Shown here piece by piece: positions 31,614-60,515 of a stretch of 64,000 nt of DNA. The stretch is from Chryseobacterium sp. W4I1 (GTDB lineage Bacteria; Bacteroidota; Bacteroidia; Flavobacteriales; Weeksellaceae). How positions within the stretch are numbered: position 1 is the first letter of the stretch; each line of letters starts with the position of its first letter. The DNA lies in NCBI RefSeq assembly GCF_030816115.1, contig NZ_JAUSXQ010000001.1, positions 2,418,001-2,482,000 on the forward strand, given 5' to 3'. Position numbers and translations under genes: made by a program. The notes beneath the pieces are model-generated. The model searched no databases and was not told the origin of the DNA. It saw only the letters and a program-made list of their open reading frames with translations.

Positions 31614-31619
31614 AAGCAG

Positions 31620-35925: not shown

Positions 35926-35989
35926 TTTCTTATTTTATAAATGAGTAATAGTTTTTAAGAAAGTAAAATATAGGGCGCTGTAGCTTTAG

Positions 35990-36034: not shown

Positions 36035-36041
36035 TAAGAAA

Positions 36042-40290: not shown

Positions 40291-40321
40291 GATTTATTTT
40301 AAATGAAAAGTTATTTTGATA

Positions 40322-41320: not shown

Positions 41321-41897
41321 GGTTTTATATTTTACTGTTTTTTCACATAAGGATAATGTTTTATAGGTACAGTTAGTCCAAAAATGAGTCACTGATAAAT
41401 AGAGAAAATTTAACATCACCAAATCCCAGCCTAGTCAGAATCATTTGTAATCCGGGTCAAATAAGAGGTTGATATCAAATAGCAAATCCATATTAAGATT
41501 ATACTTTTGTAATGGGATTGTGTAAGTATTAGAATAAGGAACAGATCACTTCCCAAACTTTATTGCAAGAATAATTTTCATAAATTTTAATTTGATGATT
41601 AATATTTTTACGGCATTAGTTTATAACAATGAAAATAATAAAAAATATAATAGAAATCAAATTTATTTCACATAGTATTGATAAAAAAAACATCATAACA
41701 TTCTGAAATTATAGCATTAACAGGCTTTTAAGATTAAAAAAGAATAAGTTAAATATAGATTTCAACCTGATTTTTTTATCATTTACCTATTTTTTCATTC
41801 CCTATTTATTAACAAAAAAAGCTCTGAAGATCATAACATCATCAAATCTCCTAAGAATTATTCTACACATCCTTTGGTCATAATCAATGCACAATAA
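41321..41897. other. A/T-rich intergenic region, promoter region of the terpene synthase pair
   Basis: A minus-strand TAAATTTG (complement of 41658-41665) fits the -7 consensus but is 338 bp from the start codon, so it is uncertain. No terminator for the upstream PKS operon was seen. No gene recognised. Confidence 0.35.
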
Positions 41898-42236
41898 CTA
41901 AAAAATATCAATTTCAATAGCAATGTCTATATCTCCTATTTCTATACGGTTTATGGTATCTAACTGAAATGTCCCTTTTGCTGAAAAAGATTTATTGTAA
42001 GTTATATCATCGCCTGTATTGCCTGATGGCCATGTTAAGTTGCACGCAAAAAAACCTTCGTTAACTGAAAATGTTTTTGAAGGCGTATCAACAAAAATAT
42101 CCTCCTGACTGATCTCTACCTGCCAATTTTTGCAGGCATAATTTTCCGGCTGTGTATTGTTTAACACATCATTCCAGATGTTATAATCATTGCTGAATTT
42201 TTCTGCAATGTGATCTTTAATCTTGTTAATTTCCAT
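41898..42236 (-). CDS. small protein of unknown function at the end of the PKS operon
   Basis: A 112-aa acidic protein. The first third is helical (MEINKIKDHIAEKFSNDYNI) and the rest looks beta-rich (SQEDIFVDTPSKTFSVNEGF; then TFQLDTINRIEIGDIDIAIE). No signal peptide or membrane segment. It is 31 bp downstream of the membrane protein gene and is the last gene of the run. I do not recognise the family. A role in the polyketide pathway is suggested only by position. Confidence 0.5.
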   Translation of the reverse strand: MEINKIKDHIAEKFSNDYNIWNDVLNNTQPENYACKNWQVEISQEDIFVDTPSKTFSVNEGFFACNLTWPSGNTGDDITYNKSFSAKGTFQLDTINRIEIGDIDIAIEIDIF

Positions 42237-42267
42237 GGTTAATAGTTTTTTGATATTAAAATTAAAG

Positions 42268-42804
42268 TTAGTAGTTAGCCATTTCAGGCTTATACATCCA
42301 TTTTCTTAATCTCCAGACAGGCACATACACAAAAATGACAGACAGGATTCCTGCAAGTATTCCAACAAGCACCGCCATCGCCGTAGCGTCCAGCTTATAA
42401 TATTCTGAAAATCCATACTGTGCAAAAAGCAATACAGACAGGACCAATAATCCAGTAGTGAGTCCGTGTATAATGCTAAGCTTAGCCATTAGTTTCTTCT
42501 TATTGAGCTGATCATCTACGGTAAACTCAATCGCGCCCTGCTCGGAAGCTATGATTACTCTGTTGATGATATCGATGGTAAGAACTACCGGTAAGAATAT
42601 GGCCATGGGCAGGGTCAACCGGGCCAGATTTTGGGTTCCGGAAAAGAAGTGGGTGTATCCCAATTCCTGAAAGCTGGCATAAGCGATAATAAAATTGAAG
42701 AATACATTCGGAAGAACATAATAAATCGTACGCTTGATTAAAAAGCGTTTCAGCGTGGTTTTCTTGAGTTTTTTAGGGGGTGGCGGTTTCAATTTAAATT
42801 TCAT
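42268..42804 (-). CDS. four-helix membrane protein of unknown function
   Basis: A 178-aa protein with a basic N-terminus (KFKLKPPPPKKLKKTTLKRF) and about four hydrophobic segments (VLPNVFFNFIIAYASF; LTLPMAIFLPVVLTIDIIN; IIHGLTTGLLVLSVLLFAQY; AVLVGILAGILSVIFVYVPV). Its start overlaps the previous acyltransferase gene by 4 bp. It could anchor or transport the product at the inner membrane, but this is inference from context. Family not recognised. Confidence 0.55.
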   Translation of the reverse strand: MKFKLKPPPPKKLKKTTLKRFLIKRTIYYVLPNVFFNFIIAYASFQELGYTHFFSGTQNLARLTLPMAIFLPVVLTIDIINRVIIASEQGAIEFTVDDQLNKKKLMAKLSIIHGLTTGLLVLSVLLFAQYGFSEYYKLDATAMAVLVGILAGILSVIFVYVPVWRLRKWMYKPEMANY

Positions 42805-44054
42805 AGCGACGAGGTCAGGAGTTCAATGGCTTTATCTTTAATTTTAACAGCTTCTTCTTTAGGCAGAAAATGCTCATTAGACATAAACGTAAAATCCATT
42901 TGCTGATTATACGTTGTGGCGACCAAAGTATTCGAATTCAGCCATGGAAAAGCAACAGTCGGACTGATGACGGTTTCCACTTTAAAATTTTTATAATCGC
43001 TTGGGATATTGATCCTTCCCATATTGGAAAGCGTTACATCATGCCCACCTTTACTGGATTTCATCATGGAAATCATACGTTCGGCAACGGGATGCATCTG
43101 CTCACCCATCCACAGAAGCTCTCTCGCCTCCATTTTTTCTATTTTTCCAACAAGATCTTTTTTGATCTGTCTGGCATTATCCAGTAGATCTGTACTTCCT
43201 TTTTTTAATGACAATTCAACGGTCGGCGCAAAAGCAAATACATGATCCTGCCTGATCTCCGGAATAAAATGACGGACATCTACAGGACTGATCACCTTAC
43301 CTTTTGCCTGCTTTCCCTGAATCTCCTGAAAAGCCTGCATAAATGAGGAACAGAACAAAGCATGTACAGAAACACCATGAGCTTTGGACTTTTCAGTGAT
43401 TTGCGCAGTTGTATCTGAATTCAACTTCCAATGGACCACGTAATTTTTTCCGAGGTTTCTTATCTTACTTTTTCGCTGCATAAGAAAAAAGAGTCGGGCC
43501 ATCACCAGGTAAAAACGGGCTTTGCGCTTCTTTTTTTTCATATTGAAATCCAAAGGCAGAAAATCATCTACAGAACTGAATACCTCATAAGGCTGCAGCT
43601 CCACAGCAGGATCATCCAGCAAAGTAAGAAGCTCCGTCATCATGGTGACAAGGGAAGTTCCGTCGCAGATACAGTGAGGCAGTACCCAAAGAATTTCGGA
43701 CACATCATTTCCTTTAATCCAGACCAATTGAGCCAGTGGTTTTTTATCATCTTTAAACAGCCGGAACCATTCACTTTCGGATTCCTGCAGCCAGTCTTCA
43801 TCTGTTTTCCGCTCAACAATGCGAAGTGGAATAGGTTCCATTTCTTTTTCTTCTATAAAAAACGGATACTTTTCACTGCTGTTATCAATCCTCGTTCTTA
43901 GCAACGGATGTTTTTGCTGGATTTTTTCTAAAGCAGCCTTAAAATTTTCCTCAGGGATATTCCCTTTGATTTTTGCCGTAAATACACAATTGACAGGGGT
44001 TTCGGGATCCACATACATGATTCGTTCCACCATCATTAAATTTCGCCTGATCAT
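42801..44054 (-). CDS. condensation-domain-type acyltransferase, copy 1
   Basis: A 417-aa protein of the condensation/PapA acyltransferase fold. The active-site motif reads LPHCICDG (His127, Asp131): the second, catalytic His of HHxxxDG is kept, while the first is Pro. The N-terminal pattern ALEKIQQKHPLLRTRI and the C-terminal VTLSNMGRINIPSDYKNF fit the fold. Such enzymes transfer acyl groups from a carrier protein or CoA to an alcohol or amine. The gene overlaps both neighbours by 4 bp. It is paralogous to the adjacent copy. Substrate unknown. Confidence 0.72.
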   Translation of the reverse strand: MIRRNLMMVERIMYVDPETPVNCVFTAKIKGNIPEENFKAALEKIQQKHPLLRTRIDNSSEKYPFFIEEKEMEPIPLRIVERKTDEDWLQESESEWFRLFKDDKKPLAQLVWIKGNDVSEILWVLPHCICDGTSLVTMMTELLTLLDDPAVELQPYEVFSSVDDFLPLDFNMKKKKRKARFYLVMARLFFLMQRKSKIRNLGKNYVVHWKLNSDTTAQITEKSKAHGVSVHALFCSSFMQAFQEIQGKQAKGKVISPVDVRHFIPEIRQDHVFAFAPTVELSLKKGSTDLLDNARQIKKDLVGKIEKMEARELLWMGEQMHPVAERMISMMKSSKGGHDVTLSNMGRINIPSDYKNFKVETVISPTVAFPWLNSNTLVATTYNQQMDFTFMSNEHFLPKEEAVKIKDKAIELLTSSL

Positions 44055-45322
44055 AATATTGCTATAGGGTCTAATTGTAATTTTACCGTCTTAATCACCT
44101 CATCACGAATGGCTAAGGCTTCAGCATACGGTAAATATCCTTCGCTTCCTACAAATGAAAAATCCATTTCTCCCCTGAATGTTGACGTTACCATCGTTGT
44201 GGTATTTCCCAAAGGACCAATCACAGAAGGACTGAAAATGGTCTCCAGTGTAAAATCCTTGTATTGATGGGGAATCTGGATACGGCCTAAGTTGGAAAAC
44301 ATACAATCATTGGAAGATTTCCCATGTTTAAGGAGCTTGGTGAAATTTTTCACGGCATCATGAGCAGACTCCATCACCATCATGGTAATGTAAGGATTTA
44401 GTTTGGAGGTTTTTCGTTCTACAGATTCCTGCATCAGTCTTAAATTTTCCGAAAAACTTATTTTTTGATTCGCTGAAACCACGATCATCAGCCCGAAAGC
44501 AAAAATATGATCCTCTTTGATCTGCTTTGCAAAACGTCTGATATCTACCGGACACGACACCTTATTGAAAGCCGCTGCCCCTCTCACTTTTTTAAATGCC
44601 TGAAGGACTGCCGCGCTCAGGAACGTATTCACCGTAACCTCCTGTGATTTGCAGTAAGCAATCAGTTCCTGGCTCATTTCTTTGTTAAATTTCCAGTGGA
44701 TTAGATAATCGTTTTGCCGGTCAATGGCTTTTTTGTTGACAGGAATACATTTGATGGCTGTTGCTGCCAATCTTCCGATCACTTTCGCTTTCAGTTTTTG
44801 TTTGCGGTTCGTTAAAATCTCAGCAGGAACCACATCATGAATTCCGAGTATGGGATTTTCCACCCCGATTTCTGCAGAAGGACGATCCAGCAGCTGTAAA
44901 AATTCATACAGAAAAGCCATTGCAGAACCGCCATCACACAAACAGTGATGAAAAGAAAAAAGCATATCTGAAACCTCTTCCCCTTTGATCCATACAAACC
45001 GGATCAATGGCAATTCTCCGTAATTGAACAAGGTTTTCCACTCTCTTGCGGATTCCTCTTTCCAGTCGTCCTCTCCTTTTCGGGCCACGATCCGTATCGG
45101 GATGGGCAGACGTCTTTCCGGAACTTCAAACCACGGGATATTGTTTTCATCATGACTGATGAGTGCTCTCAACCATGGATGTTTGCCCTGAATCTGATTC
45201 AGGGCATGTTGAATATTTTCCTCTTTAAAGGTTCCGCGCAACCGGAACGGAATCACCGCATTGAAGGGCTCTGTTCCGTCACCCAGCAGCATACGCTCAC
45301 CAAATAACAATTTTCGTCGCAT
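44051..45322 (-). CDS. condensation-domain-type acyltransferase, copy 2
   Basis: A 423-aa paralogue of the neighbouring gene with the full canonical motif FHHCLCDG (His125, His126, Asp130). Landmarks ALNQIQGKHPWLRALI and MFSNLGRIQIPHQYKDF match. It probably acylates a hydroxyl, for example on a sugar or lipid, using the polyketide synthase product or another acyl thioester. It overlaps copy 1 by 4 bp and lies 3 bp after the glycosyltransferase gene, so all are co-expressed. The pair may act on different positions; the substrate is unknown. Confidence 0.78.
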   Translation of the reverse strand: MRRKLLFGERMLLGDGTEPFNAVIPFRLRGTFKEENIQHALNQIQGKHPWLRALISHDENNIPWFEVPERRLPIPIRIVARKGEDDWKEESAREWKTLFNYGELPLIRFVWIKGEEVSDMLFSFHHCLCDGGSAMAFLYEFLQLLDRPSAEIGVENPILGIHDVVPAEILTNRKQKLKAKVIGRLAATAIKCIPVNKKAIDRQNDYLIHWKFNKEMSQELIAYCKSQEVTVNTFLSAAVLQAFKKVRGAAAFNKVSCPVDIRRFAKQIKEDHIFAFGLMIVVSANQKISFSENLRLMQESVERKTSKLNPYITMMVMESAHDAVKNFTKLLKHGKSSNDCMFSNLGRIQIPHQYKDFTLETIFSPSVIGPLGNTTTMVTSTFRGEMDFSFVGSEGYLPYAEALAIRDEVIKTVKLQLDPIAIL

Positions 45323-45325
45323 AGG

Positions 45326-47731
45326 CTATACCTTAACTAATGTTGAACGATGTTGCTGTACAAAATCTTCCAGAAGCTCTACCGCACGGTCATTGCCGCC
45401 GGCATTCAGTAAGTTCGTCTGAACCTCTTTCGCTGCGTTTCTGTAGGCAGGGTTTTCCAGCAATTCAAAAACAGTTTCACGAAGAGCCTCAACACGCAAT
45501 CGTTTGTATCGGATGCTGATTCCACAGCCTGCTTTTTCAATTAATTTGGCAATGTGAAAATGATCGTAGGCAATAGGCGTAATCAACATCGGTAATCCAT
45601 TGGTGAAGGTATCATTAACGGTATTAAAACCTCCGTGACAGATCACCGCATCCATATGAGGCATTAATGCAGATTGCGGTACAAAACCATTCACGATGAA
45701 ATTAGAAGGCCATTCATCAAATATGTCCGGCGGAGTGGCTGCAATAACCGTTACAGGCTGGTCTGCAAATGCAGCAATCACCTTTTCAAAAAAGGCTTTC
45801 CGAATATCTACCAAAAGGGTTCCTAGTGATACAAATATTTTCGGTGTTGTAGAGGCTTCCAGTTTTTCCCAGTCGAAAGGAGCAGGATTCGGACGTCCTT
45901 TCACCGGACCTACAAATCTCATATGGGATGGTACTGTTTCAAAATCTGCAAAAGTCTGTGATGTGAAGACCAGATTCAGCTTATTGGAATGGATAAAAAT
46001 ACCCTCATCATTGATCCCCACTTCTTTTTGAAGATCCTTGATCAGGTTTTGCTGCCATTCGAATATTTTTGGGGCATTATTCGCCGTATCGCCCATTACA
46101 TCAGGGGGTACAGGCGTAGTCGTTACACACGGAATATGGTGTTTGTGGGCAAAAAGAGCTCCTCCGAAAGTGATGCAATCATTCACCAGAACATCCGGTT
46201 TCCAGCTTTCCATCAGACGCTCCAATCCGGGCATCATCATTTTAGCAAACGGAACATAGGTTTCTTCCAGGGCAAGTTTCATCACTTCAGGGCCTGAACA
46301 CGCCGGCCCGTCATCCTGCCGCTTTAAAATACGCAGAATATCTTCCTGAAACGGACTCAAATCTTCTTCAGGATAAAAATAACTTCCTCCTTCCGGAATA
46401 TGTTTGCAATCCAATGGAGTAATTCCAAACCATTTCACTTCGTGTCCACGGGCGATCAGACTGGCTCCCACACTTAAGGTCGGGCTGATATGGCCAAAAA
46501 ACGGTGGGATCACAAATAAAAATTTAGACCCCGGCTTTATGGTTTCATCAGCAGGGATTAATGCTTTTTCAAGCAAATTGGCTGCGGTGGCTGTACCTCC
46601 GGCTTCGGTGAAAGATTCACGAACCTTTTCAGCAGCTTCTTTATATTCTGAATGATTTAATATATTTTTCACGGCTTTGTTTAAGTGATGGGATTTAAAT
46701 CTGTTAAAATTAAGACGTTCTCCTGCTCCGGTACGCACGACGCGTCCTGCTACATGAGACTGATCATACGCAATCGGGATCACAACCAACGGAAGACCAT
46801 TGGAAAGGGCTTCAGAAACGGTATTGTGACCGCCGTGACAAACGACTCCATCCAGATAAGGCAGCAGATCCAATTGAGGAACCTGATTATACACCATAAA
46901 GTTCTCCGGCCAGCTGTCAAAAAGCTGTGGATCAGAGACTAATACAACGGTCAGATCTTCATCTTTAAAGGCATCCACCACTTTTTGGAAGAACGCTTTT
47001 TTATGATCATGATCGAAAGTCGTTCCGATACTGACTAAGATCTTTTTGTTGATTGTCCTATTGAATCTGTCCCAATCAAATTCACAGGAGATACGGCGTT
47101 CCATAAGAACAGGTCCCGTGAACTGATAATTCTCCGGAAGATCCATTTCACCAAAGAAATATTTTGAAGTTAAAACAAGCGTCAACAGATCGGAAGAAGC
47201 CAATGAACGGTTTTCCGTTACCCCAAGTTCTTTCTGCAGTTCAATGATTTTATTGACTTCCCATTCGTGTACTTTAGGCAGCTCGTCCATCATTTTAATG
47301 GCAGCCGGAGCGGTAACGGATGTGCTGTAAGGAAGATTCAGTTTTTTGGCAGCAATAGCGGCAGCAAATAACTGATGATCTCCAATCACCAGATCGGGTT
47401 GATACTGTTTCAACAGGGTAACAATTCCATTGTAGCAATGTCTGTTTAAGGGAATCAGTACGTCATCGTAAAGAAACTTAATACTGTCGATACCGTAGAC
47501 TACTTTTTTAGAAATAATATCGAGATAGCTTTCACTTTCTCTTTTTTCCTCGTCGGTCTGATCATACTGAATGAGCAACAGTTCTCCCCCGACAGGAAGT
47601 TTTGTACTTAAATTTTTGTCAAGACTGATCCAGGCCACTTCATGTCCTCTTTGCAGTAATTCTGCACCGATGCTTAAGGTTGGATTGACATGGCCTGTCA
47701 ATGGTGGAACAACAAATACAAATTTAGCCAT
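45326..47731 (-). CDS. tandem two-domain GT1 (UGT-type) glycosyltransferase
   Basis: An 801-aa protein made of two complete GT-B glycosyltransferases. Domain 1 (about 1-395) starts VFVVPPLTGHVNPTLSIGAE (catalytic His13) and has the donor-site motif CHGGHNTVSEALSNGLPLVV. Domain 2 (about 405-801) starts FLFVIPPFFGHISPTLSVGA and has CHGGFNTVNDTFTNGLPMLI. The two resemble each other along their whole length, so the gene arose by duplication and fusion. UGTs of this type glycosylate lipids, carotenoids and polyketides, commonly with UDP-sugars. Both active sites look complete. It overlaps the hydrolase gene by 8 bp in the PKS operon. Confidence 0.85.
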   Translation of the reverse strand: MAKFVFVVPPLTGHVNPTLSIGAELLQRGHEVAWISLDKNLSTKLPVGGELLLIQYDQTDEEKRESESYLDIISKKVVYGIDSIKFLYDDVLIPLNRHCYNGIVTLLKQYQPDLVIGDHQLFAAAIAAKKLNLPYSTSVTAPAAIKMMDELPKVHEWEVNKIIELQKELGVTENRSLASSDLLTLVLTSKYFFGEMDLPENYQFTGPVLMERRISCEFDWDRFNRTINKKILVSIGTTFDHDHKKAFFQKVVDAFKDEDLTVVLVSDPQLFDSWPENFMVYNQVPQLDLLPYLDGVVCHGGHNTVSEALSNGLPLVVIPIAYDQSHVAGRVVRTGAGERLNFNRFKSHHLNKAVKNILNHSEYKEAAEKVRESFTEAGGTATAANLLEKALIPADETIKPGSKFLFVIPPFFGHISPTLSVGASLIARGHEVKWFGITPLDCKHIPEGGSYFYPEEDLSPFQEDILRILKRQDDGPACSGPEVMKLALEETYVPFAKMMMPGLERLMESWKPDVLVNDCITFGGALFAHKHHIPCVTTTPVPPDVMGDTANNAPKIFEWQQNLIKDLQKEVGINDEGIFIHSNKLNLVFTSQTFADFETVPSHMRFVGPVKGRPNPAPFDWEKLEASTTPKIFVSLGTLLVDIRKAFFEKVIAAFADQPVTVIAATPPDIFDEWPSNFIVNGFVPQSALMPHMDAVICHGGFNTVNDTFTNGLPMLITPIAYDHFHIAKLIEKAGCGISIRYKRLRVEALRETVFELLENPAYRNAAKEVQTNLLNAGGNDRAVELLEDFVQQHRSTLVKV

Positions 47732-48518
47732 GATTTTGTGTTAATGTGTTAGATAATGATTGAGATAAAAAATAAACCATCGATTCTGCAATCTGAACAG
47801 GTTCCTGTATCGGGACATTGTGATCACCGGGAATCAGTTCAAGTTCAGATGAAATGATTTGCGTTTTCAGCCATTCCCCTGTAGGTTTACAGTTCGATTC
47901 AGATCCGTAAAGCAAAAGTGTGGGTGTATCCAGTTCTGAGAAATTCGCTTCTCCCAGAAAATGTTTTTCCCTGATCATATCTGCTTTGATGCTGGTCTTT
48001 TCAAACAGGAATTCATACATCCGGTGGTTTTTCTCCATCTGCCTCTTGCCCATCTGCACTTTGGTGGTGTCCGTAAAATTGGCCACGTAATGCTCAAGGA
48101 ATTCTTTACTGTATTCATCGATGATGTTACGGGCCTTTTCATCCTGAGGATCCGGGGCTTCTATAACGACCAGCTGACTGACACGTTCCGGTGCTTTCAA
48201 TGCTGTTTTCAAAGCAATCAATCCTCCGAAACTGTATCCGGCCAGATGTACTTTCTTAAGATTTAAAACATCCATCAGAGCCAGTAAATCAGATGACATA
48301 CTTTCCAGATCGTAGCCGTCTGTAAAACGCTCACTCATGCCGTGACTTTTCAGATCATACATCACCACGTGGAAATGCTTCGCCAGAATCGGGGCAATAT
48401 TAAAATAATAAATGGAGAGGTTGCTGAACATCCCATGGATAAGCACCACCGTCTGTTCAGCCCCTTTGTTGAGTTCCTGAATATGAACCTGTTTATGGTT
48501 TATATTGATTATTGGCAT
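47724..48518 (-). CDS. alpha/beta hydrolase (possible product-release thioesterase)
   Basis: A 264-aa alpha/beta hydrolase with oxyanion strand VVLIHGMFSN, nucleophile elbow LAGYSFGG (Ser96), and a C-terminal GDHNVPIQEP for the catalytic His. The acid residue is less clear, probably in YGSESNCKPTGE. It resembles the 2-hydroxymuconate-hydrolase/thioesterase-like branch. There is no signal peptide. It overlaps the ACP gene by 10 bp and the glycosyltransferase gene by 8 bp. In this setting it may release the chain from the ACP, but hydrolysis of another ester is as possible. Confidence 0.75.
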   Translation of the reverse strand: MPIININHKQVHIQELNKGAEQTVVLIHGMFSNLSIYYFNIAPILAKHFHVVMYDLKSHGMSERFTDGYDLESMSSDLLALMDVLNLKKVHLAGYSFGGLIALKTALKAPERVSQLVVIEAPDPQDEKARNIIDEYSKEFLEHYVANFTDTTKVQMGKRQMEKNHRMYEFLFEKTSIKADMIREKHFLGEANFSELDTPTLLLYGSESNCKPTGEWLKTQIISSELELIPGDHNVPIQEPVQIAESMVYFLSQSLSNTLTQNHG

Positions 48519-48808
48519 TCGTAGATATAATTGATGATCATACGGAGGTCAAGGTTGATCAGTTCGTCTAAGTCCATAGAAGACAGCCATCCCGTGAAGT
48601 CAATCTGATCCCCGAAATGCGCTTTGATCTTCTCGGAAAAAGAAACGATTTCTATGCTGTCCATTTCCAGGTCTTTTGTGAATGAACTTTCCGGAGTGAT
48701 GTCCATTTCCTCTACAAATTCAGCGCCTATCACTTCCGTAATAAAACCTTTTAAAAGTGTGAACAATTCTTCGTGATTCAATTTTAATGTGTTGTTTATA
48801 GTGTCCAT
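48509..48808 (-). CDS. stand-alone acyl carrier protein
   Basis: A 99-aa acidic protein with the carrier pattern FTKDLEMDSIEIVSFSEKI; Ser51 is the phosphopantetheine attachment site. It would carry the growing or finished acyl chain. It overlaps the KS-AT-DH-PPTase gene by 13 bp and the hydrolase gene by 10 bp. The last third (after about residue 70) is a little longer than simple ACPs. Confidence 0.82.
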   Translation of the reverse strand: MDTINNTLKLNHEELFTLLKGFITEVIGAEFVEEMDITPESSFTKDLEMDSIEIVSFSEKIKAHFGDQIDFTGWLSSMDLDELINLDLRMIINYIYECQ

Positions 48809-51800
48809 CCGATAATATATTTTTTATGTTTAATAGTTTTTATTTCAGTTTGGTTGATCCATAAATGATCCCCCTCAATATGGGTGATTTCAAAGGCTTT
48901 TGGGTTTCCTTTCAGTCCGGTTCCCAGAAACTTTCCGTACGCTTCTTTGGCTACCCAGAATCTGGTGGTCCATTCCGCCTGATCTCTGTCTTTTAATAAG
49001 GTTAATTCGTGATCGGTAAATACCAGGTCGTAAAATCCAGAGCTGCGTTCTTCCATGATCTCCATATCGATTCCCACAGGGCTGCCCTGGCGTGCAATAC
49101 CTACCGCATCCTTTTCTTTATGGGCTAAAGAAATATGGATATCTTCTGTGACATCGCCTATCAGATAAGGTTTTCCGACCTCATCCTTCCCGATTTCAAA
49201 AGTGATCGGAAAACAAGGGTGATTTTTATGTTCACGAAGAAGATTCCGAACAGCATCTTTCACCGCTACGCGGCTCACCATCCATTCTTTCCGCTTGTTG
49301 GGAAACAATTGCTGATGATACTGTTTTTCCGTCTGGTTGAAATATCTTTTGAGGATAAAATCCCACGAAGCCACTCTGGTATACGCCTGATGAAAGAAAA
49401 ATACTTCAGGAGCTATTTCCTCCGAAAGACGATTATGCAAAGGCGACATGGAAACATTCCAAAGCGGTTCATCGATTTCCAGTCGGCGGTTTTGCCAGCC
49501 TGTAATCGCGCACCATACTTTTCCGTCTCTTTTAAGGATGATATCGGCGATGGCAAATTCTTCATTGAGTTCTGTGAGGATGCAGATACATTCAAAAATG
49601 CCGTCCTGATCCTCCATATCTCCGAAGAATTCGATATCTCTGATTTTCACGGGGAAAGCAATACGGTCTTTGGTCAGGGTAAGCTGCAGCCACAATCCGA
49701 ATAACTGTCCTGCATTATCAAGCAAAGAACCTTTTCCTCCGTTTCCTTTAATTTTCCCTACAATTCCTTTCGTTCCTACTGCAGAAATCTCTGTAATTCC
49801 CTGGTAGAGTTCTCCATGGAACATATGTTTATCATAGATCTCTTCAGGTGTTCTTTCAATAGGCAGAAGGTCCCCGATTGCCAGGTTAAAGGCAGGAACA
49901 ACAGGTGCAGATGAAGCCAGTAAGACTTCTGCATTGGCAAAGTTCTCTATATCAAGGTAAGCATGGTTATTCGAACGCCATTCTCCTTTGACTGTTTTTT
50001 CAAAAGGTTTGGCCACATTCATCCATTGAAACACACTTACATTCATGATTTTATGAACGCGGGTTCCCGATATTTCGGCCTGTGCTATTTCTGCCAACTG
50101 CTCAAAAATCATGGTCATCGGGATCACCGGCTCCATATCAGAGACATTGGTCCATCCTTTCGGCTGTCTCAGTAAACTGTGATCGATGAGGTAAGGATGC
50201 GTATCTAAAGTAACATACAGAAGTTTCGAGAAATTTTTGCTGGCAGGTACTTTAGAAACCACAGGTCTTGGGATTGTAATTTCCGGACGGTTTTGAAACA
50301 ATGTCAATACCTCTTCCTGCATCCGGATCATATCTGTGATATTTACCTGGAAAGCCTGAACCAAAGGATGACCTGTCTTAGCGACCGTCGCTGAAACCGT
50401 ATTTTGTTTTGGCATCTCAAAAGACTGAGCCAGATTTTGAATTTCTTTAAAATCACGGATAATCGGCGATCCCAGCTGTAACTTGATTCCCTTTCCTGAT
50501 GATTTTTTAGATTGGCTTTGTACTTCTAAAAAGTCCAATGCTACGGTTTTACCTTCCACAAATAATGCGGCTACCACACGCTGCAGCTGAGCCAGTGCAG
50601 ATCTTGTAGCAACACTGGAAGCAATCGTACTGAATGCTTTTCCTTTTAAGGTATCATCGATAAATCCAATTAATCCTCCGGTACCCATCTGGATAAAGAA
50701 TCTCGCTTCTTCTTCATACAATTTATCCGTCAGTTCACGGAAACGGACCGGCTGAACCAAATGCTCGGCACTTAGTTTTCTGATCGCATCCTGATCGGCA
50801 GGATACGGTTCTAAAGTCGTTGCAGACCACAACGGGATTTTCGTCTGTTGAAACTGTGCTTTTTCCATTCCAGCCAAGATCACATCCAGTTTATCAGCAA
50901 TAAAAGGTGAGTGAAAACCGGACTGAAACGGCAGAATCTGATGAAAAATCTGTTTTGATTTTAATAATGGAACCAGCTCATCCAGAGCAGCATTACTGCC
51001 ACAAAGGATCACCTGATTGGGACAGTTGTCATTGGAAATATAAAGATTGGGAATGATATCGATAAAAGGCTTCACCGCATCAATCCCTGCTCCGATTGCA
51101 ATGAATCTGGAATCTTTTAATTCAAAGGTTTCCGGATTCAGAACATCAATCAAAGCTTTCACAGAATTCACTTCTGCCAGCTCTGAGGAATATCCTGCCA
51201 GCCATTCTCCCAGGCTGTGTCCGGCATTCATATCCGGAACAATTCCCAGCTTTTTCAATGCATTGTCGAGAATACTACATTTGTTGAAAATCCCTAACGC
51301 ATCGCTTAATAAACCTTCCCCTTCTGTTTCGATAGGTTCGGTTAATCCAAAATAACGGCTCACACTCTCCACCTCTCCTTTCGCAAGGCCATCCAGCCCC
51401 GGAAATACAAAGGCAATTTTACCTCCATCTTTCAGTAAAGGTGTGTTGGTGTACCAGATATCCTGTTTATTGCGCCATGGATTATCTTTAGCAACAATTT
51501 TAGTCGCTTTTTCTATTCTTTCAGGAGTCGGGTCGAATAAAGCAATCCTGTAATCCCCTTCTCCTACTGTGTTGTCGTTGTTTTTTAAAGCTGAAAGTAA
51601 TTCTTCATGGGTAGGTCTTGCCAATACTAAAACGCGGTCTTTTTTCGGCATATCATAGCCTTCCAAAACAACGTGTGCATTGATCCCTCCAAATCCGAAG
51701 GCATTGACTGCCGCTACTTTCGGCAAGCCTGTTTTTGACCAGCTTTTCGGGTCCTGTACCGGAGCAAAACGGGTCTGCTCCATATCTGCAATTGGATTTT

Positions 51801-53028: not shown

Positions 53029-53047
53029 AGTTATCGTATACAGAGGT

Positions 53048-53914
53048 TTACCAGTTGTTTCCAGACATGATCAATACCTGACTTTCAGTTCCGTATTTGA
53101 TCTCATTAAGGAAAATTTCTTTCCCCTGGTTCAATGGAATTAAAGAAATACCGCGACGTTCATATTCTGTTTCCAGAGTCGATGAAACCATTCCGGCTCC
53201 TTTCCATGGGCCCCAGTTGATGGAGATTACTTTTCCTTTTAATTTTTTGTTTAAAGCTTTCGCATAATCATCCAGTACGGAGTTGGCCGCAGCGTAATCT
53301 GTCTGACCTTTATTTCCATATACCGAAGCAATGCTTGAGAAGAGCACTACGAACTGACAGTCGGCACGAAGCTGTTCTGCCAATACACGAAGCGGTTTTA
53401 CTTTGGTATCGAATACGCGCTCAAATGAACTGGAGGTTTTCTGTCTGAACAGTTTGTCTTCCAAAAGACCTGCTCCGTGAATAACTCCGTCTAAACGGGC
53501 GTATTTATCATAAATATTTTTGATCAAATCTGATAATCCCTCTTCGTCACAAAGATCTAAGGATTGATAGACCACTGTACTTCCCAGCTGTTCCATATCA
53601 CGGATGGTACGCAGTATCTGATTGTTTTTGAAAATTCTTACAGTCTCTTTTTCTATTTCGGAAGGAGAAGTGAATGTTCCGGTTTTAATAAGATAGCTTC
53701 TTATTTCTTCCTTGGTTTTCATGGCTTCCACTTCTTTAAGGTCTGCTATGACATCTCTAGGATCTGCCGATCTTCCTACCAGAATATAGGTGCAAGGATA
53801 CGCTCCGGACATATGCTTCACCAACTCAGAAGTGATTCCCTGTCCGCCTCCAAGCACTAAGACAACAGATTCCTGATCCAGCTGGATATGCGCTTCTTCA
53901 AGGCTTGTTGACAA
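53048..53914 (-). CDS. catalytic half of the PKS ketoreductase (separated by frameshift)
   Basis: An SDR-type KR catalytic half: NADPH motif VLVLGGGQGITSELV, the Ser in VVLFSSIASVYG and the Tyr in TDYAAANSVLDDYAK. There is no ATG; the frame runs back past TTG 53914 to 53986, reading KPSEVVYKHDQRHKIDIIPS, the usual link between the two halves of a PKS KR. The other, structural half ends the preceding gene at its stop 53976-53978. Removing one base (for example one C of CC at about 53984) joins them; combined length 53048-60089 is 1 mod 3. Most likely the C-terminus of the large synthase. It ends 19 bp before the KS-AT-DH-PPTase gene. Confidence 0.75.
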   Translation of the reverse strand: MSTSLEEAHIQLDQESVVLVLGGGQGITSELVKHMSGAYPCTYILVGRSADPRDVIADLKEVEAMKTKEEIRSYLIKTGTFTSPSEIEKETVRIFKNNQILRTIRDMEQLGSTVVYQSLDLCDEEGLSDLIKNIYDKYARLDGVIHGAGLLEDKLFRQKTSSSFERVFDTKVKPLRVLAEQLRADCQFVVLFSSIASVYGNKGQTDYAAANSVLDDYAKALNKKLKGKVISINWGPWKGAGMVSSTLETEYERRGISLIPLNQGKEIFLNEIKYGTESQVLIMSGNNW

Positions 53915-53975
53915 TGGGGAAGGGATGATATCTATTTTATGTCTTTGGTCGTGTTTGTAAACGACTTCGGAAGGT

Positions 53976-56900
53976 TTATCTGTGGTTTAATATTTCTTTT
54001 AAAGCGATCTCTGTAATCTGATCAACTTCCTGTGGTGTGCTCAGACTAATCAGCCTGCAAGAGGTTTGTTCAAATTCTCTCGCTAAACTTTTGAAAAGTC
54101 CAGGATAGCCTTTGTAATGACGTAAAAGACGGGTATCAGTCAGTTCCTGAATATGAGCCGGAATGTCTGAAATCAGATACACCCATTTGGCTTTATCAAG
54201 ATCCAGTTTCTTGATCTGATCTACGTGATCAATGATGCTGTGTTTTACGGTTGAGGAGAAGAGATCCAGAATTATCAGTCCGTCAAAATCTTTAAGATCT
54301 CTTTCCGTATCCACCAATTCTGCGATAGCTCCATATTTTTCAAGGGTATTTTTGATTGCCATCGTCTGCGGACTGTTGTCCTGAGTGATGGCAAAACGTT
54401 TCCCCTTTATGATTTCTGTATTCTGCTCTGTAGAAACATCGGTTGGCGTCAGGTCAAAACGGAGACGTGACAATAAATTCTGAACAGGTTCAGCATCAGT
54501 ATCGGTGTTTCCACTCATTTCGCTGATCCATAAGGCCAGTCCTTTTAATGTTTTAATAGCAGCCAGTTTTTCCATCAGATCATCCGCCTGGTCCATATCC
54601 TGACCGAAACCTATTTTGGTTTTAAGGTCTCCGATAATTTCCATTCTTTTAATAGAGTCAATGCTCAGGTCTGCTTCAAGGTCAAGATCCAATCCCAACA
54701 TTTCTTTCGGATACCCTGTTTTTTCACTGACGATATCCAGAATTATATTTTGAAGTTCTTCAAGAGAGAATGCAGATTTGCTTTCTACTTCTGCTGCCGG
54801 TGTTACTGTAGTTCCGTTTTTTTCAGGAGCTGCTGTTGGAGTTCCTGTCAATTCTGTCAACCAGGAAACCAGACCACTTAGAGTTTTTATCGATGCTAAT
54901 TTTTCCATGATCGTATCTTCATCAGCATTACCTGATGTAAGCGCCCCCAGTTCACTGCGAAGTGTTCCGATGATTTCTACCCTTTTGATAGAGTCAATAC
55001 TCAAATCAGCTTCAAGGTCCATTTCCATGCCGAGCATTTCATGAGGGTATCCTGTTTTATCGCTGACCACCTGTAGCAACAGGGTTTTAATATCTTTTAC
55101 CGGAGCCTGTTTTACCGAAACGGCAGCAGGCTTTTCTATATGGACCGGCTGTGCAGGAATCGTCACCAAACGATCGTTCACAGGTGCTTGTACCGGCGCA
55201 GCATAAACAGGTGCAGGGCTGACTTGTGGATTCTGTCCCAGGAAGGAAAGCATCACATCACGCTGTGCCTGAATCAGCTGTTTCATGGTATTTAAATATT
55301 CCTGAAGCATACGTTCAGCGGCAGGCTGAGATTCGGCTACAGGGGCTCGTTGGTTATTCGTAAAATTGTTCATGGGAATAGGATTTAATATCGGTAATGC
55401 ACCGTTAGCCGGCAGATTACCTGTGGTTGGATGCGCCATTTGTCCGTTCACACGCCAGATGGCTGGATTTTTCTTATACAGTTCAGGCTGGTCAATTTGA
55501 ATCAATCTGGCATTACGGCCATCGAAAAGTTTTTCAATGCTGAAGCTTCGGCCAGTTCCCAGATATTGTGCTAGCATGGAAAGAAGATGGCTCAGTTTAT
55601 TTCGGTTGCTGTCTTCTACATACAGGACCAGCTGATCTTTTTCTAAGCAGGATTTAGTCAGTCCGGAAAGGACTTTTCCAGGTCCTACTTCGATGAATAT
55701 TCTGGCTCCGTCTTCATACATCGCCTGAAGTTCTTCTACAAATCTCACGGGCTGTACCAAATGATCCGTCAGTCTTTCCTTGATTTCTGAAGGCGTTGCA
55801 GGATAGGTTTCAGCTGTTGTATTCGACCAAACCGGGATCTGCATTTCCTGGAACGGAACCTCTTTCAAGACTTCATTATATAAGCCTTTGGACTTAGCCA
55901 ATAACGGGCTGTGGAATGCACACGCAACTTCTAATTTCTTTGCAGAGATACGTTCCTGTTTAAGGATCTCCATTAATTTATTGATAGCCGGCATACTTCC
56001 TGCCACTACACATTGGGTCGGGGCATTATAATTAACCGGATAACAACCTTCTGTTTTGTCTAGTACCGGGTGCAACTGTTCTCTTGTTGCGCTTACCGCA
56101 ATCATAGTTCCCGGATCACCGCCTTCTACTGAATCTAAAATGGCGTGAGCTCTTTGAATACTCAAATCAACCAGTTTTTCTTCTTCAAAAACACCGGCAA
56201 AACATAAAGCCGGTAATTCACCATAGCTGTGGCCTGCCACCATATCCGGAACGATGTCCAGTGATTTCAGGAATTTAGCCAAAGCCAGGTCAACAATTCC
56301 TAAGATAGGTTGGGCCAGGCGGGTATCTTTAATGGTTTCTTTCTGTTGTTTTAAAGCAGCTTCATCAAACGTTGTTGAAGGGAAAACTACTTTCTCCAGT
56401 TCAGGATATCCTTCGATCAGGTTACGCATGGCCGGAAAAGCTACGAACAGATCGCGGGCCATATTGATTCTCTGACTGCCCTGTCCCGGGAACAGGAAGG
56501 CTACTTTACCATCACGTTTATTCACCGTGAAAGTATCTTTACTTTCAATGCCGGATAATGCCAGTTCGATGTTCATCATCAAATGTTCGGCAGTGTCAGC
56601 AACGATGGTTAACTGAATTGGTTTTTCTGAACCTACTGCTAAGCTGTAAGCCATATCTTTTAAAGGAATATCACCATTAACCTCTAATAAAGATTTGATC
56701 TGTGACAATGGAATTTTCGCATCCTCATACGTATCCCCACGGAATACAAACAATTCTGACGGCCACGATTGCAATACAGCAGAATCATCTTCCTTCGGAT
56801 GGTTGGCAATAACCGTATGGAAATTGGTTCCCCCGAATCCGAAAGCACTGATTCCGGCATAACGGTTTTTCTCGCCCCACAATCCACTTTCTGCATAAAA

Positions 56901-59900
56901 AGCAAAAGGACTGGTTTGGGCATTATAATAAGCATTAGGCTGCTGTAAGTGAAGTGTCGGTGGTTTTACGCCATGATATACTGCCAGTGAAGCTTTGATC
57001 AGTCCGGCTAACCCTGCGGCACATTTGGTATGCCCGATCTGCGTTTTTACGGAACCTAAGTGAGTCTGTCCTGGTATCGCTCCTGAGCGGCTGAATAAAT
57101 TCGTCAGTGCACTCAGTTCGGTTTTATCTCCCACTACAGTTCCGGTTCCGTGAGCTTCCACTAAACCAACTGATGCAGGACTGATACCCGCCTGAGCGTA
57201 TGCACGCTCCAATGCGCGTACCTGTCCTATTTTTCTAGGTGCTGTAAGACCCAGTGCCTTTCCGTCACTTGATCCTCCCACTCCTTTAATGACAGAATAA
57301 ATACGGTCACCATCACGAACTGCATCTTCATATCTTTTTAAGACAAGGATTGCCACACCTTCTCCAAGGGCAATACCATCGGCTTCTCCGTCAAATGTTG
57401 CACATCTTCCTTTTCTCGAAAGGGCGTGCGTGCTGGAAAACATCAGGTAATCATTGATTCCGTTATGTAAATCCGCTCCTCCGGCAAGAACCATATCGGA
57501 TTTTCCTAATATCAGTTCCTGACAGGCCAGATCGATAGCTGCTAAAGAAGAAGCACACGCCGCATCTACGGTGAAATTTCTTCCGCCAAGATCCAGACGG
57601 TTTGTAATCCTACCTGCGATCACATTCGCCAAAATACCCGGGAATGAATCTTCCGTCGTATGTGGAAATGCCTGTTTTACTTCTTCATGAAGTTCTCCGA
57701 AAACCTGTTTATAGTATCCTCTGAAACTATAGCTGTTGGCCAGATCATTACCGCCTTCAGCTCCTATAATAACAGAAATATTTTCTCTGTTGATGTGTTT
57801 TTCTCCATAGCCTGCATCTTCCATCGCACGCTTGGCAACCAATAAAGTCAACAGTTGTGTTGGTTCAATGGCAGCAAGAGATTGAGGAGGAATTCCGAAG
57901 GCCAATGGATCGAAATCAATTTTTGGAATAAACCCGCCCCACTTGGAGTGAGATACATCCGGCCCGTCTGAATCCGGATGGTAGTAGAGTTCTTTGTTCC
58001 AGCGCTCATCAGGAACTTCTGTGACACTGTCTCGTCCCAAAATGATATTTCGCCAGTATTCTTCAAGGTTTTTAGCGCCCGGGAAAATACATTCCATCCC
58101 GACAATCGCTACATCCAGAGGTTTTTCTGTGGATACCGGCAGTTCCGGTAAAGCCGCCTCTTCAATATATTTATAGTTATCAATACTTACGTTCTGATGA
58201 AGGGATGCAAGGGAAATCACGCGGTTTTGCATCGTAGCCACCTGACCGATCATGTACATTCCAAGATCCAGCTGCTCGTTTTTAGGAACATTAACCAACT
58301 TGTCTCCCTGACGATCGATTCCTTTTGCGGCAATCCTAAGTCGGCCCACATTGAGTTTTTCAAGCTGCTCCCAAACTTCTTTTTTATCCATTCCGGCGGC
58401 CAGAAGTTTGATCTTCTCAGTACTGAAATGTTTAGCAAAAGCTGTATTTAAACAACGTGTCTCGTGTCCCGGTGCCGTTTCCAGTAAGACCGTGTCTTTT
58501 GCCTGCATCGCCTGTACCTGGAATTCTTCCTGAATAGCTCCGGTACGTACAGCTTCTTCCGTATATAAATAAGCAGTTCCGATCAATACGCCAACTTTTA
58601 CGCCTCTGGCTGCTAAAGGAGCCGCCATGATAGAAACAAATGCTGTTGAAAATGCATTGTGAATTCCCCCTGCAAAAAATACGCTGATATTTTCAGGATG
58701 TTCTTCTTTTAAAATACGTTCAATTTGTTTTTCCCAAAGCACCATGCTTGAAAGCGGGCCCACGTGACCGCCGCACTCACGGCCTTCAAAGATGAAATTG
58801 GTAGCGCCTTCTTTTAGGAAAATATCTAGTAATGCAGGAGAAGGAACGTGAAGGAAGGTTGTAATTCCCGCTTTTTCAAATACCTTAGCCTGTGCAGGTC
58901 TTCCTCCGGCAATAAGGACTACGGAAGGCTTTGCTTCCAATATATAGGAGGTCTGTTCTTCTCTCAATTCCTGAGGGGCAAATCCAAGAATACCTACGCC
59001 CCATGTTTTTTCACCTGCCAGTTTTTTCGTTTCCATCACCAAAGCTTTGGCCTGTTCACCTTTTAATAATGACAAAGCAACAAAAGGCAAAGCTCCTGCA
59101 TCCGCTACTGCATTAGCAAACAACGGAACATCACTGACACGGGTCATTGGTCCCTGTGCGATAGGATAACGTAATCCCAGTTTCTGGGCCATTATATTAT
59201 TTTCACTGATCACCTCAAGTGCTTTAGCCTGCTTCAGGTGACCATACATAGCTTCCTTGAACCCGAAAACCATTTTTTTTAGGCTTTTGAAATCTTCATA
59301 CAGATCTACCGCCAATGAAATATCCTGACCCATAGGAATATAGCTCTTGCTTGGGTCAAGATCAGTAAAATATTGTCTCAGCTCTTCGGCCGTGACATTT
59401 TCAGGTAATGCAGGTGAGTTCGGTCTCACCAGCACCCGATGGTTGGCTATAATTTTAGTTTCTGCACCATTGAGTTTTGAGGACAGGTCTTTGATTTCCT
59501 GAGGAACGGAACTCTCCGGGAACAGCGCCAATTGACTGTCGAGTACAATTCCGGCAGCTCCTAATGATTTTACTGCGGCAGCTGTGTGCAGTCCTATTCC
59601 TCCCTGTACCCAAACAGGGATGGTCTGAATTTCTTTAGTGACACGCTGAAACAGTACAAAAGTTGACTCATAGCCTACCAGGCCTCCTGCCTCATTTCCT
59701 TTTATAATAATCCCTTCTGCACCCGACTGTTCGGCCAGCCTGGCTTCATCTAAACTGGTTACCTGATAGATAACAGGCAGATCCGGTACAATATTCATTG
59801 AAACTCCGGACGGAAGGATCGCAAATCGTACTTTTTTCGGGATCTGCAGGGATATAAATTTGTCGTTCGGTAGATAGATACCATAAGAAGGTACATCGGT

Positions 59901-60089
59901 CTGATCAAGTTGATTCAGTGCTTCCTGAGCGGCCGCCGCATTATGGCCTAAGCTTAAGATGGGAAATGCACCCGCCTGGTGCAATTTAGGCATAAGACTG
60001 ACATCCGGCTTTTCAAAAGGCGTTAATCCAAGAATGGTTAAGTTTTTCATTGCATTTATGGTATTGAGGTGATAATTGGGAAACTTCAT
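53976..60089 (-). CDS. PUFA-synthase-like polyketide synthase: ER-ER-KS-AT-ACP-ACP-KR(part)
   Basis: A 2037-aa megasynthase. Residues about 13-235 and 295-600 are two nitronate-monooxygenase/PfaD-type FMN barrels (enoylreductase), the second with LRYPIAQGPMTRVSD and FEGRECGGHVG. The ketosynthase (about 657-1085) has DAACASS (Cys845), EAHGTGT and QIGHTKCAAG. The acyltransferase (about 1195-1500) has GHSYGE (Ser1288) and FHSPLL. A Pro/Gln-rich linker follows, then two ACPs with DLEADLSIDSIKR (Ser1700 and Ser1812), typical of PUFA synthases. The end is the structural half of a KR (GYPGLFKSLAREFEQ); the catalytic half follows in another frame. With the next gene it supplies every step of full beta-carbon processing. 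Confidence 0.88.
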   Translation of the reverse strand: MKFPNYHLNTINAMKNLTILGLTPFEKPDVSLMPKLHQAGAFPILSLGHNAAAAQEALNQLDQTDVPSYGIYLPNDKFISLQIPKKVRFAILPSGVSMNIVPDLPVIYQVTSLDEARLAEQSGAEGIIIKGNEAGGLVGYESTFVLFQRVTKEIQTIPVWVQGGIGLHTAAAVKSLGAAGIVLDSQLALFPESSVPQEIKDLSSKLNGAETKIIANHRVLVRPNSPALPENVTAEELRQYFTDLDPSKSYIPMGQDISLAVDLYEDFKSLKKMVFGFKEAMYGHLKQAKALEVISENNIMAQKLGLRYPIAQGPMTRVSDVPLFANAVADAGALPFVALSLLKGEQAKALVMETKKLAGEKTWGVGILGFAPQELREEQTSYILEAKPSVVLIAGGRPAQAKVFEKAGITTFLHVPSPALLDIFLKEGATNFIFEGRECGGHVGPLSSMVLWEKQIERILKEEHPENISVFFAGGIHNAFSTAFVSIMAAPLAARGVKVGVLIGTAYLYTEEAVRTGAIQEEFQVQAMQAKDTVLLETAPGHETRCLNTAFAKHFSTEKIKLLAAGMDKKEVWEQLEKLNVGRLRIAAKGIDRQGDKLVNVPKNEQLDLGMYMIGQVATMQNRVISLASLHQNVSIDNYKYIEEAALPELPVSTEKPLDVAIVGMECIFPGAKNLEEYWRNIILGRDSVTEVPDERWNKELYYHPDSDGPDVSHSKWGGFIPKIDFDPLAFGIPPQSLAAIEPTQLLTLLVAKRAMEDAGYGEKHINRENISVIIGAEGGNDLANSYSFRGYYKQVFGELHEEVKQAFPHTTEDSFPGILANVIAGRITNRLDLGGRNFTVDAACASSLAAIDLACQELILGKSDMVLAGGADLHNGINDYLMFSSTHALSRKGRCATFDGEADGIALGEGVAILVLKRYEDAVRDGDRIYSVIKGVGGSSDGKALGLTAPRKIGQVRALERAYAQAGISPASVGLVEAHGTGTVVGDKTELSALTNLFSRSGAIPGQTHLGSVKTQIGHTKCAAGLAGLIKASLAVYHGVKPPTLHLQQPNAYYNAQTSPFAFYAESGLWGEKNRYAGISAFGFGGTNFHTVIANHPKEDDSAVLQSWPSELFVFRGDTYEDAKIPLSQIKSLLEVNGDIPLKDMAYSLAVGSEKPIQLTIVADTAEHLMMNIELALSGIESKDTFTVNKRDGKVAFLFPGQGSQRINMARDLFVAFPAMRNLIEGYPELEKVVFPSTTFDEAALKQQKETIKDTRLAQPILGIVDLALAKFLKSLDIVPDMVAGHSYGELPALCFAGVFEEEKLVDLSIQRAHAILDSVEGGDPGTMIAVSATREQLHPVLDKTEGCYPVNYNAPTQCVVAGSMPAINKLMEILKQERISAKKLEVACAFHSPLLAKSKGLYNEVLKEVPFQEMQIPVWSNTTAETYPATPSEIKERLTDHLVQPVRFVEELQAMYEDGARIFIEVGPGKVLSGLTKSCLEKDQLVLYVEDSNRNKLSHLLSMLAQYLGTGRSFSIEKLFDGRNARLIQIDQPELYKKNPAIWRVNGQMAHPTTGNLPANGALPILNPIPMNNFTNNQRAPVAESQPAAERMLQEYLNTMKQLIQAQRDVMLSFLGQNPQVSPAPVYAAPVQAPVNDRLVTIPAQPVHIEKPAAVSVKQAPVKDIKTLLLQVVSDKTGYPHEMLGMEMDLEADLSIDSIKRVEIIGTLRSELGALTSGNADEDTIMEKLASIKTLSGLVSWLTELTGTPTAAPEKNGTTVTPAAEVESKSAFSLEELQNIILDIVSEKTGYPKEMLGLDLDLEADLSIDSIKRMEIIGDLKTKIGFGQDMDQADDLMEKLAAIKTLKGLALWISEMSGNTDTDAEPVQNLLSRLRFDLTPTDVSTEQNTEIIKGKRFAITQDNSPQTMAIKNTLEKYGAIAELVDTERDLKDFDGLIILDLFSSTVKHSIIDHVDQIKKLDLDKAKWVYLISDIPAHIQELTDTRLLRHYKGYPGLFKSLAREFEQTSCRLISLSTPQEVDQITEIALKEILNHR

Positions 60090-60483: not shown

Positions 60484-60515
60484 AAAAAAATAACGTTACC
60501 GGGAAGCAACGTTAT
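60484..60515 (-). terminator. intrinsic terminator after the 60636 gene
   Basis: ATAACGTT (60490-60497) pairs with AACGTTAT (60508-60515); on the minus strand the stem is followed by a T run. It lies about 120 bp after the stop at 60636. Confidence 0.7.

Follow-up and report, generated by a model that had tools for sequence, protein, structure and literature searches.

The closest described relatives of the locus considered here are the secondary lipid synthases. Type N was defined from Chitinophaga pinensis and Chryseobacterium gleum by Shulse and Allen in 2011 (PMC3098273); its product was unknown there, and a role in resting bodies was suggested. The same paper places Streptomyces avermitilis and Renibacterium in Type M. 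Fused pfaDA and pfaBC-PPTase genes are reported from Aquimarina sp. TRL1 and Flavobacterium sp. N502540 (clade VI), which were likened to Renibacterium (PMC13291983). We analysed 64,000 nucleotides of Chryseobacterium sp. W4I1 (contig NZ_JAUSXQ010000001.1, positions 2,418,001 to 2,482,000; hereafter the window) from a genome that is a single contig of 4.62 Mb. On its minus strand, the window contains an operon of eight genes in one run, from 60089 to 42268. The operon encodes two synthase proteins (A and C), a free-standing acyl carrier protein (ACP), an alpha/beta hydrolase, a glycosyltransferase (GT), two PapA-like acyltransferases and a small hydrophobic protein.

A Type N secondary lipid synthase in Chryseobacterium sp. 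W4I1

The core of the operon is the published Type N synthase and belongs to a described family. As a whole, the operon probably encodes a secondary lipid synthase of Type N (M/N-like) and makes an acylated glycolipid. The initial annotation had proposed a PUFA-synthase-like locus that is iterative, reducing and glycolipid-directed, and had left class and product unknown. Its description of the locus holds for the most part, with the corrections given below. The reading is still the best-supported one, and as a whole it is partly supported. The class can now be given as Type N, and no report of a product of the Type N operon was found in the open-licence literature. The suggested phylogeny of ketosynthases (KSs) leads to a described family for which we found no reported product.

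C. pinensis YS-16, a different strain from that of the paper, matches the window in gene content and order: A (57%), C (57%), ACP, hydrolase, GT and PapA-like (L060). PapA-like 1, PapA-like 2 and the last gene of its locus are seen in L084. The motif classes of the phosphopantetheinyl transferase (PPTase) agree as well. Type N synthases have at least one KS, ACP and ketoreductase (KR), usually with tandem ACPs. All of these are found here; in the window, the KR is in a different frame. In a KS tree that contained no hglE or Shewanella pfa KS, KS1 groups with secondary lipid KSs. It joins two further Chitinophaga (97/94) and Streptomyces (100/99) first, and Rhodobacteraceae (87/80) and Beijerinckia/Methylosinus (83/89) after them. 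Beijerinckia is assigned to Type P in PMC3098273; KS1 is nearer to it than to three KSs from other type I polyketide synthase (PKS) or nonribosomal peptide synthetase (NRPS)/PKS proteins.

Conservation and limits of the operon

The order A-C-ACP-hydrolase-GT is kept in 60/60 related loci, indicating that the operon is not a chance assembly. By their titles, these loci come from Chryseobacterium (39), Sphingobacterium (9), Chitinophaga (6), Flavobacterium (5) and an Aquimarina metagenome-assembled genome (MAG). PapA-like 1 is present in 59 of them; in the Aquimarina MAG (L064), the contig stops inside the GT gene. For 17 of the 60 loci, the far end was also fetched, to about 10 kb past the operon (less than 4 kb in L077). 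All 17 extended loci continue with PapA-like 1, PapA-like 2 and the last gene, beyond which the neighbourhoods diverge. The operon was first thought to reach 41898. The open reading frame (ORF) at 41898-42236 is matched in none of the extended relatives, and it is rejected as a member. Two adjoining terpene synthase genes are also rejected, with matches in only one of the 17 (Chryseobacterium herbae). At the other end, no upstream ORF of at least 100 codons is common to more than two of four genera (13 loci), which makes A the first conserved gene. The conserved block of the 60 loci, 17 of them extended, shows no gene annotated as a regulator, a transporter or a resistance determinant.

The genes overlap or nearly abut, as was first described. 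From the KR down to the final gene, overlaps are at most 13 bases and gaps at most 19. The GC content of the operon block is 43.4%, vs 36.7% in the remaining window. Pfam and NCBIfam searches of the window proteins confirm two KSs, two acyltransferases (ATs), three ACPs (two tandem and one free), the PPTase, the hydrolase, the double GT and two condensation/PapA-type acyltransferases.

Gene A

In the window, unlike in relatives, the frame of A is broken by one base between ACP2 and the KR. A and the KR share a single ORF in 59/60 related loci, and the stop-to-stop frame in these is 2330-2562 codons. The exception is the Chitinophaga pinensis YS-16 copy (L060, 10001-21255), in which A and C are both in several broken frames. 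Among the 120 relatives of A listed, 118 carry a KR domain and measure 2313-2367 aa, and two are truncated. The KR had been counted as a separate gene. Judged against the single ORF of the relatives, it is the product of a one-base frameshift, and a separate KR gene is rejected. Such a break can be read as an extra gene, which calls for caution. A sequencing error and a mutation are both compatible with the window data.

The catalytic residues of A and C were compared in 61 aligned sequences (59 of the 60 loci, the broken L060 being omitted, and two Streptomyces). Those of A are conserved in 61/61, save the His of enoyl reductase (ER) barrel 1 and the Ser of ACP1. The ACP1 Ser is present in 59/61, with a gap there in both Streptomyces. 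The two predicted ERs are found as NMO/FabK-type barrels and cannot be treated as equals. Barrel 2 has the catalytic His in 61/61 sequences and barrel 1 in 0/61, implying that the first barrel has lost its histidine. The kinship between the barrels is a weak point, as it comes from a profile comparison (94.7% probability over 218 columns). The best fold match of the ER model is FabK-like, with FabK above PfaD by Z and identity, while the fold is common to all; these matches mostly span residues 194-632 of the model, which is another weak point. Two TIM-barrel ER domains are described in a 2026 paper as a feature found in thraustochytrid PUFA synthases alone (PMC13311796), and the fused pair is therefore of interest. 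The position of the barrels ahead of the KS is as first noted, and this fusion and the PPTase-bearing C are described for relatives (PMC3098273, PMC13291983).

Gene C

The nearest named relatives of C are from Chryseobacterium, e.g., C. oleae at 98%. C contains one KS with an intact Cys-His-His triad (61 aligned sequences), followed by an AT. Neither a chain length factor (CLF) nor a second KS-like stretch is seen by Pfam or in the alignment. C thus shows neither the KS-CLF of PfaC nor the KS-CLF-AT layout of hglC, which has no dehydratase (DH). In a pairwise alignment, the malonyl-binding Arg 1313 of the malonyltransferase domain (MAT) of A faces Glu 633 of AT2, and this column of AT2 contains Arg in 0/61 relatives.

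The DH had been predicted on sequence. Pfam does not detect it in the C protein of the window; support comes from an AlphaFold2 model and from PF14765 (PS-DH) in a Streptomyces homologue. The model is best matched by PKS DH domains, including those of PpsC and a MAS-like protein. No FabA-like entry is among the matches listed for this model, though C may still have such a domain. The PPTase motifs are VGKP and ISLAH, and their G, P, S and H are invariant in 32 aligned sequences. They fit the classes x(G/D)xP (P1a) and hShxH (P1b') given for Types M-T (PMC3098273).

Tailoring genes

The Ser of the free-standing ACP and the Ser and His of the hydrolase are conserved in 62/62 relatives. The GT is one ORF in 53/60 loci and two ORFs in 6/6 Chitinophaga, and is ended by the contig edge in L064. 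PapA5 acylates diols with polyketide chains in mycobacteria, and PapA5-type enzymes esterify polyketide chains. Both PapA-like proteins have the HxxxDG motif and PapA5 homology. In the 17 extended loci, the motif is HHxxxDG in PapA-like 1 and P/A-H-x3-DG in PapA-like 2, without exception. Phthiocerol/phthiodiolone dimycocerosyl transferase (8s6l) is the better of two PDB matches of PapA-like 1 and the sole PDB match of PapA-like 2. They do not pass the NCBI PapA5 model NF006787 (33.9 and 30.5 bits vs 396) and are therefore distant relatives of PapA5, not PapA5 itself.

A homologue of the last gene directly follows PapA-like 2 in 17/17 extended loci, with 28-92% identity. Its product is probably a membrane protein, as first predicted. 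The protein is hydrophobic by eye, and its only match, to SecD/SecF, is below threshold.

Comparison with other described systems

As far as the accessible text of PMC3098273 goes, hydrolase, GT, PapA-like and membrane genes are not described for Type N. Cassettes from Streptomyces resemble the window in ER-KS-AT-ACP-KR and KS-AT-DH-PPTase proteins, followed by ACP, hydrolase and GT. They differ in that A has a single PP-binding domain, only one GT is present, and a methyltransferase stands where the window has PapA-like 1, PapA-like 2 and the last protein. These cassettes are probably Type M, a label given here by inference. The Aquimarina and Flavobacterium clusters share the core fusions with the window. 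They are hybrids with large PKS-NRPS assembly lines (PMC13291983), whereas the neighbours in the window are lanthipeptide and terpene genes.

PUFA synthases (PfaABCDE) share the iterative type I logic, the tandem ACPs and a second AT of other specificity. In contrast, the window has no CLF, its DH is nearest to PKS dehydratases, and its FabK-like ER is fused before the KS. CLF-less pfaBC is reported from cyanobacteria (PMC13291983). The heterocyst glycolipid synthase (hgl, Type F), from which the antiSMASH rule takes its name, is also a PUFA-like synthase for a glycolipid chain. Its hglC is KS-CLF-AT without DH/I (PMC3098273), while the window has KS-AT-DH-PPTase and acyltransferases. The mycobacterial phthiocerol dimycocerosate and phenolic glycolipid (PDIM/PGL) pathways (Pps/MAS, PapA5) are linked to the window by PapA5-type enzymes and by the DH matches given above, but have another synthase layout and belong to another phylum.

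In C. herbae, antiSMASH region 2.2 ('hglE-KS, T1PKS, terpene', 495,527-554,653) is reported without known similarity, and three glycolipids are among the polar lipids (PMC10459008). The C. herbae locus (L032, 505488-531592, contig NODE_2) lies inside this span if the numbering is the same, and the region appears to be the same locus type as the window. A similar region without known similarity is reported from Sphingobacterium thalpophilum (PMC11446778). Sphingobacterium detergens also carries the locus (L030). Its surfactant has been called a glycolipid (PMC8009627), and is described elsewhere as one phospholipid fraction and one mixed polar lipid fraction (PMC7956807). A link was considered, and nothing connects the surfactant to the genes of the locus.

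Proposed pathway and alternatives

From the observed gene order, domains and conserved catalytic residues, and from the modelled best folds of the DH and ER barrel 2, we infer a pathway, including the order of its steps, the length and saturation of the chain, the sugars, the acyl donors and the use of all parts for a single product. The PPTase of C would arm the ACPs, and the Arg-bearing MAT of A would supply malonyl units. KS1, and perhaps KS2, would condense them iteratively on the tandem ACPs. The KR, the PKS-type DH and the FabK-like ER barrel 2 would reduce each unit, with barrel 1 as a putative structural partner. The chain would be mainly saturated, with a hydroxyl remaining where the cycle halts early. 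The AT of C, without the malonyl Arg, may transfer a starter or the finished chain, as PfaB does. The chain would then be handed to the free ACP or freed by the hydrolase. One or two sugars could be added by the double GT, and the PapA5-like pair could link acyl groups as esters to hydroxyls on the lipid or the sugar. The small hydrophobic protein might aid the placement or export of the product, which would be a glycolipid.

These data are best read as an iterative, fully reducing synthase whose chain goes into an acylated glycolipid. The block order is kept across Chryseobacterium, Sphingobacterium, Flavobacterium, Chitinophaga and, to its contig end, the Aquimarina MAG. The catalytic residues are invariant, the DH and ER folds are PKS-type and FabK-like, both acyltransferases match PapA5, and KS1 groups with the Streptomyces cassette. 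Several points weigh on the other side. No product is reported for the operon type, and the DH escapes Pfam in the window. The branches joining KS1 to Rhodobacteraceae (87/80) and Type P (83/89) have modest support. The PapA-like enzymes may transfer acetyl or fatty acid synthase II (FAS II) acyl groups. By its name, the MGT subfamily also glycosylates macrolides, which means that the aglycone could be something other than a lipid. The GT belongs to this macrolide subfamily (TIGR01426), which would suit a glycosylated and acylated signalling or antibiotic polyketide instead of a membrane lipid, the hydrolase offloading or cyclising a chain of modest length. The patchy distribution (106/173 genomes of the genus), the likely horizontal transfer and the methyltransferase of the Streptomyces version point the same way. 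Such a product is nevertheless unlikely: the conserved block has no annotated regulator, transporter or resistance gene, no upstream gene is common to more than two of the four genera, and KS1 lies with secondary-lipid KSs and not with the three KSs taken from other type I PKS or NRPS/PKS proteins.

The synthase may also be non-working in the window, its frame being broken. That the operon is decaying in W4I1, with a real frameshift and an inactive synthase, is a doubtful but serious possibility. Truncated A proteins (P0092, P0102) occur in other Chryseobacterium. On the other hand, the remaining catalytic residues checked are intact in the window, the other genes of the operon are uninterrupted, and a lone assembly error would look identical. 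A true PUFA synthase, making chains like eicosapentaenoic or docosahexaenoic acid for membrane phospholipids, is very improbable. The tandem ACPs, MAT and KR agree with it, and so does the PfaA model TIGR02813 (cut-off 1010.1), which is a further point against the glycolipid reading: intact A proteins of one Chryseobacterium and one Chitinophaga pass it with 1038.8 and 1037.5 bits. The A fragment of the window and the one Streptomyces relative tested are below the cut-off. With no CLF, a DH nearest to the PKS type and an ER nearest to the FabK type, a PUFA product is rejected as unlikely, and the PUFA label of the initial annotation is weak. Lastly, the polyketide could acylate a glycosylated terpene made by the terpene synthases at 39265-41422. 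These genes adjoin the operon in the window, and both are merged in the C. herbae antiSMASH region (PMC10459008). Terpene synthase matches are found within about 10 kb in only one of the 17 extended relatives, C. herbae, where they lie about 8 kb past the operon behind other genes. This alternative is extremely improbable.

Distribution and evolution

The DH-PPTase part of C is present in 106 of the 173 genomes of the genus examined. Of 395 genomes drawn across the phylum, 39 are matched, and only four of these along the entire query: W4I1 itself, two more from the genus and one from the order. The distribution is therefore patchy. The other 35 matches are a weak point, as they are limited to query residues of about 366-570 (PPTase) with 25-37% identity.

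A tblastn search of KS1 against plasmids (E <=1e-60) matched 407 records. Among the best 40 of these, two Streptomyces linear plasmids (NZ_CP108492.1 and NZ_CP108735.1) have 61% identity, and the next has 49.9%. Both plasmids contain A, C, ACP, hydrolase, one GT and a methyltransferase in a single run. In the one analysed by Pfam, A consists of NMO (two stretches), KS, AT, PP-binding and KR, and C of KS, AT, PS-DH and ACPS; ACP, hydrolase, GT and methyltransferase are also confirmed. When the DH-PPTase part of C from Streptomyces served as the protein query, at least 120 relatives were found at 78% coverage or more, and those listed with an organism name are Streptomyces save one 'Actinobacteria bacterium'. 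Because the unit recurs in Actinomycetota, the hydrolase and GT appear to be core members and old companions of the synthase. The tail of the operon differs between the two phyla.

RpoB identity to the window genome (1091 residues, 17 genomes) is 96-99% in Chryseobacterium, 78-79% in Flavobacterium, 74% in Sphingobacterium and 70% in Chitinophaga. For the best segments of A, identity is 79-81% in Sphingobacterium, 76-77% in Flavobacterium and 56-57% in Chitinophaga. Since A is more alike than RpoB across orders, the operon has likely moved between orders by horizontal transfer. In a tree of C, built by a quick method and with long branches at the outgroups, Flavobacterium seoulense (L044) lies inside the Chryseobacterium clade (99 by the Shimodaira-Hasegawa-like approximate likelihood-ratio test, SH-aLRT), apart from four other Flavobacterium. 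Its A is 77% identical to that of the window, as in other Flavobacterium. Its C, hydrolase and GT are 86, 81 and 84% identical, vs about 79-80, 73-76 and 80-81% in the others. As these three are closer to the window while A is equally far, a mosaic operon is suggested.

This pathway type was thus catalogued in 2011 without a product, is common in the genus and has seemingly moved between orders. The conserved tailoring genes predict a sugar and ester-bound acyl chains. The kind of system itself is known; what is new is the cross-phylum core with a GT, the histidine-less ER barrel and the PapA5-like tail. It can be speculated that the block is one arm of a glycolipid pathway that spans Bacteroidota and Actinomycetota, with a CLF-free, two-KS, fully reducing synthase, a fused catalytic/non-catalytic ER pair and sugar transfer. 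With PapA5-like acylation in Bacteroidota, its product might be an undescribed class of acylated glycolipids in that phylum, following a mycobacteria-like logic; we hold this to be slightly short of an even chance.

Feature coordinates and neighbouring genes

Table 1. Features of the operon and its upstream flank in the window.
Feature	Position	Strand	Basis or remark
Gene A, window frame of 2037 codons	53976..60089	-	Pfam + NCBIfam; frame interrupted before KR
Gene A, ER-like barrel 1	59304-60062	-	NMO-type
Gene A, ER barrel 2	58290-59237	-	NMO/FabK-type
Gene A, KS1	56790-58127	-	Pfam/NCBIfam
Gene A, MAT	55641-56498	-	Pfam/NCBIfam
Gene A, ACP1	Ser 1700	-	Pfam/NCBIfam
Gene A, ACP2	54591-54743	-	PP-binding
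KR (C-terminal portion of gene A), frame-shifted	53048..53914	-	PF08659 KR
Gene C, 1410 aa	48796..53028	-	KS2, AT2, DH, PPTase
Gene C, KS2, Cys-His-His triad	51634-53028	-	
Gene C, AT2, without malonyl Arg	50686-51261	-	
Gene C, predicted PKS-type DH	49474-50244	-	AlphaFold2 model
Gene C, PPTase	48799-49434	-	
Free-standing ACP, 99 aa	48509..48808	-	PF00550
Alpha/beta hydrolase, 264 aa, thioesterase-like	47724..48518	-	PF00561, PF00975
Double GT1-family glycosyltransferase, 801 aa	45326..47731	-	TIGR01426 MGT, two stretches above cut-off
PapA-like acyltransferase 1, 423 aa, HHxxxDG	44051..45322	-	PF00668
PapA-like acyltransferase 2, 417 aa, PHxxxDG	42801..44054	-	PF00668, PF16911 PapA_C
Small hydrophobic protein, 178 aa, last conserved gene	42268..42804	-	Sub-threshold SecD/SecF match; homologues in relatives
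Terminator-like hairpin upstream of operon	60490..60515	-	11-pair stem + T run; consensus match only

The hairpin may insulate the operon from the preceding gene. Promoter and terminator scans of the window are around chance level (23 terminator-like sites vs 18.0 expected from shuffles), which makes such sites a weak point.

The two adjacent terpene synthase family 2 genes are on the minus strand, and C. herbae has an extra related gene between its homologues. An outer-membrane beta-barrel protein is encoded at 36305-38726 (minus). Its N-terminal part may lie in an ORF of its own (38469-38726), and the gene could be another broken one in this assembly. A class I lanthipeptide cluster lies at 29406-36224 (minus), with a precursor-like ORF containing a GG leader motif and CTTTS repeats (36042-36224), LanB-like (32833-35925) and LanC-like (31620-32906) proteins and a C39-peptidase ABC transporter (29406-31613). 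At 22251-24629 (minus), an FGE-sulfatase/DinB_2 protein stands beside a Methyltransf_33 (histidine-specific) protein, a pair reminiscent of EgtB/EgtD of ergothioneine synthesis.

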